Assembly: GCF_001418225.1 (NCBI RefSeq)
Contig: NZ_LIPT01000003.1
Coordinates: forward strand, 372,001 to 436,000
Source: Pannonibacter indicus
GTDB lineage: Bacteria > Pseudomonadota > Alphaproteobacteria > Rhizobiales > Stappiaceae
Reading direction: 5' to 3'
DNA: 64,000 bases
The notes beneath the pieces are model-generated. The model was not told the DNA's origin and did not search any database. It worked only from the letters and a program-made list of their open reading frames with translations. This document shows positions 19,026 through 26,692 of this stretch, piece after piece. Position numbers and translations under genes: made by a program. The stretch's first letter is position 1; each line of letters starts with the position of its first letter.

Positions 19026-19107
19026 CACACTGCTCATCTGGGTCGTGACAGGTGGGCGGAACGGTGGTGCCGGCATTTCATCTGGCAGGTGCCGCCGGTT
19101 CAAAAAG

Positions 19108-19334
19108 GCGACAGCGGGAGAGGCTGGAGAGGTGCCCTGCAGCAATGCAGGGATCTGAGACAGCGCCGAAGGAGCAACCGCCCCGGAAACTCTCAGGCAA
19201 AAGGACCGCTTCGCTTTGACGCTCTGGAAAGCAGGCCTCGCATGCTGATGCGTGAGGCCTCACCGAAGGAGTAACCTTCCGGCTGCCTCCGTGCGCCGGG
19301 CGGGAAATCTCTCAGGTACTCGGACAGAGGGGGT
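19108..19334 (+). promoter_or_regulatory. Tandem glycine riboswitch
   Basis: Two consecutive aptamer-like units precede gcvT. Unit 1 (about 19108-19214) contains CGGGAGAGGC, GCGCCGAAGGAGCAA and AAACTCTCAGGCAAAAGGAC. Unit 2 (about 19219-19334) contains GCTCTGGAAAGCAGG, CACCGAAGGAGTAA and AAATCTCTCAGGTAC, ending CGGACAGAGG. These are the conserved glycine-aptamer blocks, and the two-aptamer form usually activates glycine cleavage genes when glycine is high. The distance from unit 2 to the gcvT ATG is about 53 nt, leaving room for an expression platform acting on translation or transcription. Confidence 0.93.
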
Positions 19335-25016: not shown

Positions 25017-25018
25017 TC

Positions 25019-25100
25019 TCATGCCAAGGCTCTGAGATGCTGACGCATCACGCCTTGAAGATGCTCAAGCCCTTCATGGCGCAGCCATGCCGCTTGACAG
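25019..25100 (-). repeat. Dispersed two-hairpin repeat, copy B
   Basis: The small-hairpin core CCAAGGCTCTGAGATGCTGA and onward matches the other copies; the large-hairpin part is replaced by a divergent imperfect palindrome (TTCATGGCGCAGCCATG). This is the only copy not between convergent genes. Its end supplies the TTGACA used as a possible -35 for the tyrS leader. Confidence 0.6.
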
Positions 25101-25123
25101 ACGGGATGGTTCCGGGGCATCTA
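25094..25123 (+). promoter_or_regulatory. Candidate promoter of the tyrS leader
   Basis: TTGACA at 25094-25099 with a weak -10 (GCATCT or CATCTA) 17-18 nt downstream. If used, transcription would begin at or next to the leader-peptide ATG at 25131, giving a leaderless transcript. That fits the absence of a ribosome site there. Confidence 0.4.
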
Positions 25124-25130
25124 TCCTGCG

Positions 25131-25196
25131 ATGATCAAGACTGCCGCCACCTTTGTGTATTTTTATTACGTCACCTCCATACCGGCGGCTGCGTAG
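25131..25196 (+). CDS. Putative aromatic-codon leader peptide of tyrS
   Basis: A 21-codon open frame beginning MIKTAA, with the core TFVYFYYVT and ending in Ala-Ala-Ala then TAG. Codons 8-13 are Phe-Val-Tyr-Phe-Tyr-Tyr, a density of tyrosine codons unlikely by chance just ahead of a tyrosyl-tRNA synthetase gene. There is no Shine-Dalgarno, but a -35-like TTGACA about 32 bp upstream would allow a leaderless start, as known for trpL in Sinorhizobium. It is too short to be a functional protein; its translation probably senses charged tRNA-Tyr. Confidence 0.75.
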   Translation: MIKTAATFVYFYYVTSIPAAA

Positions 25197-25250
25197 GATC
25201 TTGCTCATTTGATCAAACCCGAAAAAGCCGCCGCGTCAGGCGGCTTTTTG
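25143..25250 (+). promoter_or_regulatory. Transcription attenuator of tyrS
   Basis: Four mutually complementary segments alternate: GCCGCC (25143-25148), GGCGGC (25184-25189), GCCGCC (25227-25232) and GGCGGC (25239-25244), the last followed by TTTTTGGTTTT. Pairing 3:4 gives a terminator (GCCGCC-GCGTCA-GGCGGC plus T-run) and pairing 2:3 gives an antiterminator. Segment 1 lies in leader codons 5-6, the Tyr codons fall between 1 and 2, and segment 2 is just before the leader stop. Stalling at Tyr codons would mask segment 1 and free segment 2 to block the terminator. This is the classical amino-acid attenuator geometry. Confidence 0.78.
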
Positions 25251-25299
25251 GTTTTCAAAGGCTCTCCTGACAGGGGCAAACTCCCGAAGGAAGCCGCAA

Positions 25300-26577
25300 G
25301 TGACCCAGCATATGATCGAGGCCGGAAAACCGGCCAGCCCGCTCAAATCCGAAGCTCTGCAGGTGTTGTTCGAGCGCGGGCTCGTCAACCAGACCACGGA
25401 ACTGGAGGCGCTGGATGCGCGCCTCGCAGAGGGGCCTGTCACAGTCTATGCCGGTTTTGATGCCACGGCCGCCAGCCTGCATGTCGGCCATCTGATGCCG
25501 CTGATGACCATGCGCTGGCTGCAGAAACTCGGCCACCGGCCCATCATCGTTCTGGGCGGTGGCACCAGCCAGGTGGGTGATCCCAGCTTCCGCAATGAGG
25601 CCCGTCCTATCCTCGAAAAGCAGCAGATTGCCGCCAACATCGCCGGCATCCGCCGCTCGGTGGAGACGCTGATCGACTTCTCCGGCGCGGAAGGCGCGCT
25701 GCTGGTGGACAATGCCGACTGGCTGACGGAAGTGAAGTTCCTCGAATTCCTGCGCGATTACGGCAGCCATTTCACAGTGAACCGCATGATGACCTTCGAC
25801 AGCGTCAAGTCGCGGCTTGAGGCGCAGATGCCGCTGACCGTGCTGGAATTCTGCTACATGATGCTGCAGGCGGTGGATTTCCTGGAACTCTCACGCCGCC
25901 ATGGCTGCAGCTTGCAGGTCGGCGGTTCGGACCAGTGGGGCAACATCATCAACGGCGTCGAGCTTGGCCGCCGCGACGGGCGCAAGCTGCATGGGCTGAC
26001 CGTGCCGCTGGTGACCACGGCGAGCGGGGCCAAGATGGGCAAGACGGCGGCCGGTGCCGTGTGGCTGCATCCGGAGCATCTGTCGCCTTTCGGCTTCTGG
26101 CAGTTCTGGCGCAACACGGCAGATGCGGACGTGCCGCGCTTCCTGCGGCTTTTCACCGAGCTGCCCCTGAGCGAGGTGGAGCGCCTGTCCGATCTGCAAG
26201 GCGCCGAACTCAACGAGGTGAAGAAGCTGCTGGCGACCCACGTCACCGGCATCGTCCACGGTGCCGATGCTGCCCGCCACGCGCTGGAGCAGGGCGATGC
26301 GCTGTTCTCCGGTGACGAGATGAGCGCCGAGCCGACCCACACTCTGCCGCTCGCCATGCTGGCGCAGGATCTGGGCTTGCTGGAGCTGCTGGTTGCCACG
26401 GGCTTTGCCGCCTCCAACAGCGACGCCCGGCGTCTGGTTGAGGGCGGCGGCGTGCGTCTCAACGGCAATGTCGCCGACGATCCGCGCCGCCGCATTTCCA
26501 GCGGAGATCTGGGCGCCAACGACCGCCTGACCCTCGCCGCCGGCAAACGACGCAAGGCGCTGGTGGCGTTTGGGTGA
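25300..26577 (+). CDS. tyrS: Tyrosyl-tRNA synthetase
   Basis: 425 residues from a GTG with AAGGA about 8 nt upstream. Class I signatures are HVGHL (HIGH-like, after YAGFDATAASL) and KMGKT (KMSKS-like); the Tyr-binding QVGGSDQWGNI is present, and the C-terminus has an S4-like RNA-binding domain (SNSDARRLVEGGGVRLNG). It charges tRNA-Tyr. Expression appears controlled by the attenuator immediately upstream. The product has no transmembrane or extra domain. Confidence 0.97.
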   Translation: MTQHMIEAGKPASPLKSEALQVLFERGLVNQTTELEALDARLAEGPVTVYAGFDATAASLHVGHLMPLMTMRWLQKLGHRPIIVLGGGTSQVGDPSFRNEARPILEKQQIAANIAGIRRSVETLIDFSGAEGALLVDNADWLTEVKFLEFLRDYGSHFTVNRMMTFDSVKSRLEAQMPLTVLEFCYMMLQAVDFLELSRRHGCSLQVGGSDQWGNIINGVELGRRDGRKLHGLTVPLVTTASGAKMGKTAAGAVWLHPEHLSPFGFWQFWRNTADADVPRFLRLFTELPLSEVERLSDLQGAELNEVKKLLATHVTGIVHGADAARHALEQGDALFSGDEMSAEPTHTLPLAMLAQDLGLLELLVATGFAASNSDARRLVEGGGVRLNGNVADDPRRRISSGDLGANDRLTLAAGKRRKALVAFG

Positions 26578-26692
26578 GGATATACCAACTCCCGATAAGT
26601 TTGACTTATCGGGAGTTGGTCAAGTCCGTGCGGCGCTTGAGCCATTTCAAGGCGTGATGCGTCAGCATCTCAGCGCCTTGGCATTGGCGGCG
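26578..26692 (+). repeat. Dispersed two-hairpin repeat, copy C (best preserved)
   Basis: Begins directly after the tyrS stop. A perfect 17-bp inverted repeat with arms ACCAACTCCCGATAAGT / ACTTATCGGGAGTTGGT and loop TTG spans 26584-26620. It is followed by the shared tail with GTGCGGCGCTTGAGCC and the small hairpin GATGC-GTCA-GCATC at about 26654-26669. It is placed between the convergent tyrS and orphan genes. Confidence 0.85.

Follow-up and report, generated by a model that had tools for sequence, protein, structure and literature searches.

A probable, apparently leaderless tyrosine attenuator ahead of a second tyrosyl-tRNA synthetase gene in Stappiaceae

In the T-box of Bacillus subtilis tyrS, which serves the same gene as the locus described here and answers the same signal, the charging of tRNA with tyrosine, the tRNA binds the RNA directly and there is no leader peptide. 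In autoregulation of the thrS kind, the synthetase binds an operator at its own gene. The attenuator of the enterobacterial his operon is a six-segment chain, in which the pairings A:B, C:D, and E:F are set against B:C and D:E; that chain ends in a terminator, whereas the one considered below would continue to the Shine-Dalgarno (SD) sequence of the gene. The pheST leader of Escherichia coli has an SD, and the ilvBNC leader of Corynebacterium glutamicum is reportedly made without a ribosome binding site.

Classical attenuation of a synthetase gene by the cognate amino acid is named for E. coli pheST in PMC1262725; that system answers to Phe and is gammaproteobacterial. The paper also reports predicted classical attenuators before Streptomyces trpS and leuS genes, one of them before trpS2, which differ in belonging to Actinobacteria and in using Trp or Leu; for tyrosine, the known RNA control that it gives is the T-box, and it places most synthetase genes of Firmicutes under T-box control (PMC1262725). 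According to the accessible text of PMC4046766, C. glutamicum aroF has a putative leader peptide with Phe-Tyr-Phe; aroF and ilvBNC are biosynthetic genes of another phylum and are likened to the present locus by description, not by sequence. The alphaproteobacterial trpLE(G) system of Sinorhizobium meliloti has a leaderless ORF, control codons, an antiterminator, and a terminator, and its trpL RNA begins at the ATG, a precedent for a leaderless leader (accessible parts of PMC7298713 and PMC10117765); it differs in using Trp and in preceding a biosynthetic gene, and those parts describe no SD switch. We found no tyrosine attenuator before tyrS in the open-access literature; it may, however, have been predicted before in a study of aminoacyl-tRNA operons (Lopatovskaya et al. 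2010). Classical synthetase attenuation is known, and what appears to be new here is the combination of Tyr with tyrS, a leaderless arrangement, and a predicted chain of pairings that would run on to the SD.

The locus lies within 64,000 nucleotides of Pannonibacter indicus DNA, the whole stretch analysed, hereafter called the window. Read from its sequence, it very probably carries a transcription attenuator that is Tyr-specific, works through the ribosome on a leaderless leader ORF, and controls a second tyrosyl-tRNA synthetase (TyrRS). Most likely, the leader and its alternative hairpins turn on this extra enzyme when tyrosine-charged tRNA is short. Searches against Rfam gave no T-box match, even at E values up to 10, and the Phe_leader and Thr_leader models scored 19.7 and 16.7 bits, respectively, below the gathering cut-off of 55; no known riboswitch matched at the leader.

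The leader ORF and its promoter

The gene behind the leader, tyrS1 (positions 25300–26577; all features are on the forward strand unless marked otherwise), starts with GTG and encodes a protein of 425 amino acids. This product scored 353.5 bits against TIGR00234 (curated cut-off, 113.8), identifying it as a tyrosine–tRNA ligase; a profile search also found PF00579 and S4 matches, the KMSKS-like motif reads GAKMGKT in the translation, and the protein is 100% identical over its 425 residues to the copy in Pannonibacter phragmitetus DSM 14782, also of the Stappiaceae. From 80 related loci retrieved, 50 close orthologues (L039–L088, 64–100% identical) together with the window's copy (L009) made up a set of 51 tyrS1 loci. 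A small ORF with a cluster of Tyr codons was present in all 51, its stop codon lying 84–134 nt before the tyrS match. The Tyr leader also occurred at L021 and L023 (genomes G001 and G006), giving 53 leaders in total.

In the window, the leader ORF (25131–25196) starts with the ATG at 25131, has 21 codons, ends with the TAG at 25194–25196, and encodes the peptide MIKTAATFVYFYYVTSIPAAA. Its control codons, TAT TTT TAT TAC (25158–25169), include Tyr codons at 25158 (TAT), 25164 (TAT), and 25167 (TAC), and a Tyr cluster is present in all 53 leaders; such a short ORF with clustered cognate codons is characteristic of a ribosome-mediated attenuator. The two Phe codons that the leader also contains are a point against a Tyr-specific reading. 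The peptides vary among relatives (FVYFYYVTDIPAAA in Roseibium, AVYYYATDISAAAFL and MDFYYAANI in Pseudovibrio, SVYYFTAPF in P. carbonis, and FYYYATHS in genome G006), and what stays constant across them is Tyr and its spacing to segment 2 of the hairpins described below. Among 41 aligned loci, 40 have 15–18 nt between the last Tyr codon and the GCGGC that follows it, and L075 reads GGCGGT there. Given the general size of a ribosome footprint, by which the masking of segments 1 and 2 was judged, the spacing of the control and stop codons fits the covering of one or the other segment by a ribosome. An earlier note on this DNA, made from the window alone, had described a 21-codon Tyr-rich frame ahead of tyrS, with its stop and Tyr codons placed for attenuation; the frame is read directly in the sequence, and both its presence and its placement recur in the relatives.

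The leader promoter has a −35 box, TTGACA (25094–25099), separated from the leader ATG by 31 nt, and a putative −10 element, CATCTA (25118–25123), 7 nt before that ATG; CATCTA, CATTTA, or CATATA stands at the −10 position in many relatives. This putative −10 would place the first transcribed nucleotide on the A of the leader ATG or immediately beside it. TTGAC starts 34–38 nt before the leader ATG in all 51 tyrS1 loci (counting the nearer of two TTGAC in L060 and L068 and the second ATG in L063), and the background for TTGAC at 33–39 nt is 12 of the 2145 ATGs in the window (0.56%). An SD motif (AGGA, GGAG, GAGG, or AAGG, 4–16 nt upstream) precedes 0 of 51 leader ATGs versus 49 of 51 tyrS1 starts. 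The −35-like box and the missing SD, both pointed out in the earlier note, are regular features of these loci. This promoter geometry and the absent SD favour a leaderless start, and transcription from the leader ATG would be the simplest reading.

Alternating hairpins between leader and terminator

The alternating GCCGCC and GGCGGC segments and the T5 terminator, as first listed from the window, can all be read directly in its sequence. The core of segment 1 (GCCGCC, 25143–25148) pairs with segment 2 in the predicted fold, and the start region (25131–25140) also pairs with 25199–25208. Segment 2 (GGCGGC, 25184–25189) lies near a ribosome standing at the stop codon and would be exposed while the ribosome waits at the Tyr codons. 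Segment 3 (GCCGCC, 25227–25232) can pair with segment 2 or segment 4. The next stretch (25233–25244) comprises the loop GCGTCA and segment 4 (GGCGGC, 25239–25244), the latter supplying the 3′ arm of the terminator; the two together are also a partner of segment 5, farther downstream. The U5 tract of the predicted intrinsic terminator (25245–25249) follows at once, and the GTG of tyrS1 stands 50 nt beyond this TTTTT. The leader RNA folds with a z score of −3.35, and 1 of 200 shuffles was equally good. The predicted pairings include a mutually exclusive antiterminator (2:3) and intrinsic terminator (3:4). The U-tract is broken or absent in some relatives, for example L067, L068, and L021.

Within the family, the antiterminator 2:3 is paired in 96.9% of cells and the terminator 3:4 in 90.9%. 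The earlier note had named non-conservation in relatives as the outcome that would speak against its reading; these percentages and the Tyr cluster in 53 of 53 leaders are the opposite outcome. It had also suggested looking for covariation: inside the family there was none in 2:3, and 3:4 scored 0.042, not above its slid versions (0.059 and 0.054), 2:3 and the core of 3:4 being nearly invariant there. That each segment has two partners may explain this absence of drift. By eye, the segments of two GNAT leaders from a different family (L156 and L161) read GGTGGT/ACCACC/GGTGGT, a concerted change.

The helix with the start region (1:2) gave a mixed picture. It is paired in 77.2% of cells versus at most 39.3% in slid versions, a comparison biased in favour of the tested structures, which were derived from the window's own sequence, and its covariation score was reached by 2 of 500 shuffles. 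Two of the five measures were ordinary (38 and 191 of 500 shuffles as good), and one slid version had more cells changed on both sides (10 versus 5). In Roseibium, 1:2 forms mainly between the start region (ATGAnCAAGA) and the sequence that follows the stop codon. Of the three exclusive pairings proposed originally, 2:3 and 3:4 are conserved, whereas the GCCGCC:GGCGGC form of 1:2 is not kept in Roseibium.

The Shine-Dalgarno hairpin and the proposed chain

The regulatory feature extends beyond the terminator to the SD of tyrS. This SD hairpin and its 4:5 alternative, like the second tyrS copy and the relatives outside the family treated below, go beyond the earlier note. Segment 5, GGCTCTCCTGAC (25260–25271), is an anti-SD strand and the alternative partner of the loop and segment 4; it covers segment 6, AGGAAGCC (25288–25295), which includes the tyrS SD. 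Compared with shuffles, the stretch from the terminator to the start codon had a mean z of −2.39, with 41 of 51 tyrS1 loci below −1.5 and the window at −1.3. In a fixed span of 48 nt, the SD was at least 75% paired at an energy of −12 or lower in 42 of the 51 tyrS1 loci, and the same held for 7 of the 24 genes with a recognisable SD among the 39 genes of the DNA stretch analysed. The arms of 5:6 co-evolve: when native arms were compared with swapped ones, 0 of 2000 permutations were as low (48 variants).

The terminator loop, together with the beginning of segment 4, offers segment 5 a second complementary partner. With G-U pairs counted, the unbroken 4:5 run spans 11 pairs in 7 of 13 Pseudovibrio loci and in L067, L068, and L021, 7 pairs in most Roseibium, and 6 in the window; five leaders (L074, L076, L078, L085, and L023) have runs of 4–5 pairs with a bulge or mismatch. 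Swapping loop and segment 5 inside the family gave 14 of 2000 permutations as low, on rows that are not independent. Across genes and lineages, own partners averaged −14.4 versus −10.3 kcal/mol for swapped ones (17 groups, 0 of 5000 as low), and this co-evolution was the same over 23 loci (0 of 5000). That run followed one uniform rule and included all 20 outside leaders; an earlier run over 14 and 22 loci, in which the L152 loop was set by hand and L155, L157, L159, L164, L168, and L172 were left out, was concordant. The window's own match between loop and segment 5 is weak, being equalled by 104 of 1000 shuffles, and seven further leaders lack a good match, with 708 (L172), 353 (L170), 160 (L156), 157 (L168), 148 (L166), 125 (L162), and 101 (L157) of 1000 shuffles as good.

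When folding was simulated on RNA ending at segment 5 with segment 3 held, at least five pairs formed between segment 5 and the loop plus GG in all 53 loci. After the SD had been made, again with segment 3 held, 4:5 persisted in 18 of 53 and 5:6 took over in 17 of 53, the remainder being mixed. Against shuffles of the downstream part, the family median z was −2.7, with 39 of 53 below −2 and the window at −1.3; z was about 0 for L162 and L163 and +0.9 for L187. Masking of segment 1 left the full-length RNA folded, by eye, as 3:4 and 5:6 in 6 of 7 loci, including the window, and only L085 adopted 2:3 and 4:5. The switch must therefore be kinetic.

The kinetic and regulatory steps that we infer would run as follows. 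RNA polymerase would begin on the leader ATG or immediately beside it, and a ribosome would load on the 5′ AUG. When Tyr-tRNA is ample, the ribosome would reach the stop codon and cover segment 2; the 3:4 terminator would then form, and transcription would not continue into tyrS. Under a shortage of Tyr-tRNA, the ribosome would wait at the Tyr codons with segment 1 covered and segment 2 free, 2:3 would form, and tyrS would be transcribed. In a second step, 2:3 would leave the loop and segment 4 free to catch the emerging segment 5 before the SD appears, keeping the SD open; with 3:4 formed, segment 5 would instead close the SD (5:6). A single stall would in this way set both termination and translation. 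The pairings suggest a six-segment chain, with 1:2, 3:4, and 5:6 in the OFF state and 2:3 and 4:5 in the ON state. For the second step, in which 4:5 would keep the tyrS SD open, we see the chances as about even. If the scheme is true, the locus offers a leaderless leader with a testable stall-dependent switch, and one leader that sets both transcription and translation.

Three other readings of this anatomy, in addition to chance, were weighed. The SD hairpin could be an operator bound by TyrRS itself, in autoregulation outside the attenuator chain, and the conservation of such a hairpin at the SD of a synthetase gene speaks for it. We consider it unlikely: similar hairpins follow the leaders of GNAT, tyrA, and trpS genes (by eye; L222 not counted), and the 5′ arm of the hairpin co-evolves with the terminator loop. 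A purely translational attenuator, in which 3:4 is not a terminator and the leader merely opens or closes the SD hairpin, would account for that hairpin in most loci (42 of 51, by the pairing and energy limits above) and for the missing terminator U-tract in L067, L068, and G001; the window and the Roseibium loci inspected, however, have a T-run directly after the GC-rich hairpin, which makes this reading very unlikely. It is highly improbable that the leader acts through arrest of its nascent chain and senses something besides Tyr-tRNA. The stretch FVYFYYVTDI(P/S)AAA is nearly constant in Roseibium, as that would require, but it is nearly constant at synonymous sites as well, as RNA pairing demands, and in other lineages only the Tyr codons are kept. 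A decayed or accidental terminator beside a chance Tyr-rich ORF, without regulation, is hardly credible: short ORFs and terminators are common, and 14 of 22 other genomes matched by the covariance model described below show no leader, but conservation in 53 loci already contradicts it, as do the promoter geometry and the absence of the leader from 98 of 103 other tyrS loci.

The second TyrRS and related leaders in other genomes

A covariance model (R1), for which 41 of the 53 leaders served as input, matched 67 of 87 family genomes at E ≤ 5.5e−12. These 67 are all the genomes of genera g1, g2, g3, and g6; none of the other 20, which belong to g4, g5, and g7, was matched at this level. Those three genera gave two weak matches (E = 6.2e−4 and 0.0094), the first of which precedes a trpE-like frame and has WWW codons, and weak second matches occurred in Roseibium and Pseudovibrio genomes (E from 4.5e−6 to 0.01). 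No plasmid copies of the leader were found. In 37 family genomes that were searched with the protein as well, tyrS1 and the leader were both present in 22 and both absent from 14, genome G029 being intermediate. There (L279, G029:C1:3417800-3419150), a leader reading SYVYFTVAHI by eye and its promoter are kept before a degraded TyrRS gene, the remnant of which is a C-terminal fragment with 40% identity.

All 22 family genomes with tyrS1 carry another TyrRS, 46–51% identical to that of the window; in the Pannonibacter genome it lies at G000:C11:13266-14501. None of 15 family loci with a TyrRS other than tyrS1 (10 second copies and 5 sole copies) has the leader. Tyr-rich matches at three such copies (L196, L198, and L209) were rejected as leaders, since they resemble what we take to be the end of glnA. 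In a tree built from 54 TyrRS rows, a selection of those retrieved, one branch (support 100/97) separates 19 attenuated Stappiaceae copies and 3 copies from other families (G349, G286, and G580) from 32 unattenuated TyrRSs, which include the second copies of those same three genomes; two of the three outside attenuated rows have long branches (0.86 and 0.56), which makes their placement less sure. Among 103 other tyrS loci scanned, a count in which some places appear twice, a Tyr leader was found at 5 loci of 4 genomes (L189 of G349, L222 of G782, L190 of G286, and L221/L210 of G580) and was absent from 98; 17 further loci gave no frame. TTGAC at 33–39 nt was seen only in L221/L210 among these Tyr leaders. 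Tyr-rich small ORFs at L225, L240, L259, L272, and L089–L091 lack the leader geometry and were rejected by eye. Because the attenuated copies lie on one side of the branch and leaders are rare elsewhere, the attenuator, as traced by sequence, appears to travel with one patchily kept TyrRS lineage. The product of tyrS1 would then be a spare enzyme called up when charging fails, and the mechanism, if true, would give the second TyrRS a role under starvation or in the presence of an inhibitor.

R1 matches outside the family were read individually, with nine downstream genes, and the window's tyrS as a tenth, named by profile and the others by likeness. Leaders before tyrS read NYYATLP, RYYATFP, and VYFARLP, and those of prephenate dehydrogenase (tyrA) genes read NSYYRLSS and LYYAASH (loci L162 and L169; L169 starts with GTG). 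DAHP synthase genes have FWYFYY before class I (L152, from which L155 differs by one codon) and FYDRWYIPAA before class II (L172); no TTGAC was found at leaderless distance in these three. The trpS leader AFIWWRSF (L187) has WW codons and TTGAC at 36 nt. GNAT acetyltransferase genes of several alphaproteobacterial families follow leaders rich in Tyr, Phe, and Trp (YFWLYL, YWYPS, WYFTPLT, and WYFSATS among them; L154, L159, L163, L164, L156, L161, L166, L168, L170, and L181, at about 1501–2200 on the leader strand), with terminators and TTGAC 35–37 nt before the start. TTGAC at that distance was found in 14 of 20 loci with such leaders, one of the 20 (L157) being a trpL-like leader of the window's own family; a search of the window's own genome with the leaderless trpL pattern gave 10 matches, none of them trpL-like. 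No leader was seen at the R1 matches L160 and L165 or, by eye, in 14 of the 22 other genomes of the second outside search.

We give even odds to the broader proposal that a single stall in a leaderless ORF shifts the register of all six segments in the manner of dominoes, coupling antitermination to SD opening, and that this arrangement belongs to a mostly leaderless class of aromatic-amino-acid attenuators in Alphaproteobacteria, which would serve extra synthetases (tyrS and trpS), tyrA, DAHP synthases, and GNAT genes. No name for such a class was found in the open-access literature. If the proposal is true, the GNAT genes that follow aromatic leaders would be candidates for a function in the metabolism of aromatic amino acids or of tRNA.

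The surroundings of tyrS1 show other features of their own. The gene and its leader are flanked on both sides by a dispersed repeat of about 50 bp, the two copies being inverted (25017–25070, forward strand; 26635–26684, reverse strand); this repeat has at least 39 short matches in the genome (40 of 213 candidates scored). A long hairpin, ccaactcccgataag...cttatcgggagttgg, lies directly 3′ of tyrS1 at 26585–26619. Elsewhere in the window, a tandem glycine riboswitch is located at 19105–19329, and the genes downstream of it resemble, by eye, glycine cleavage genes.
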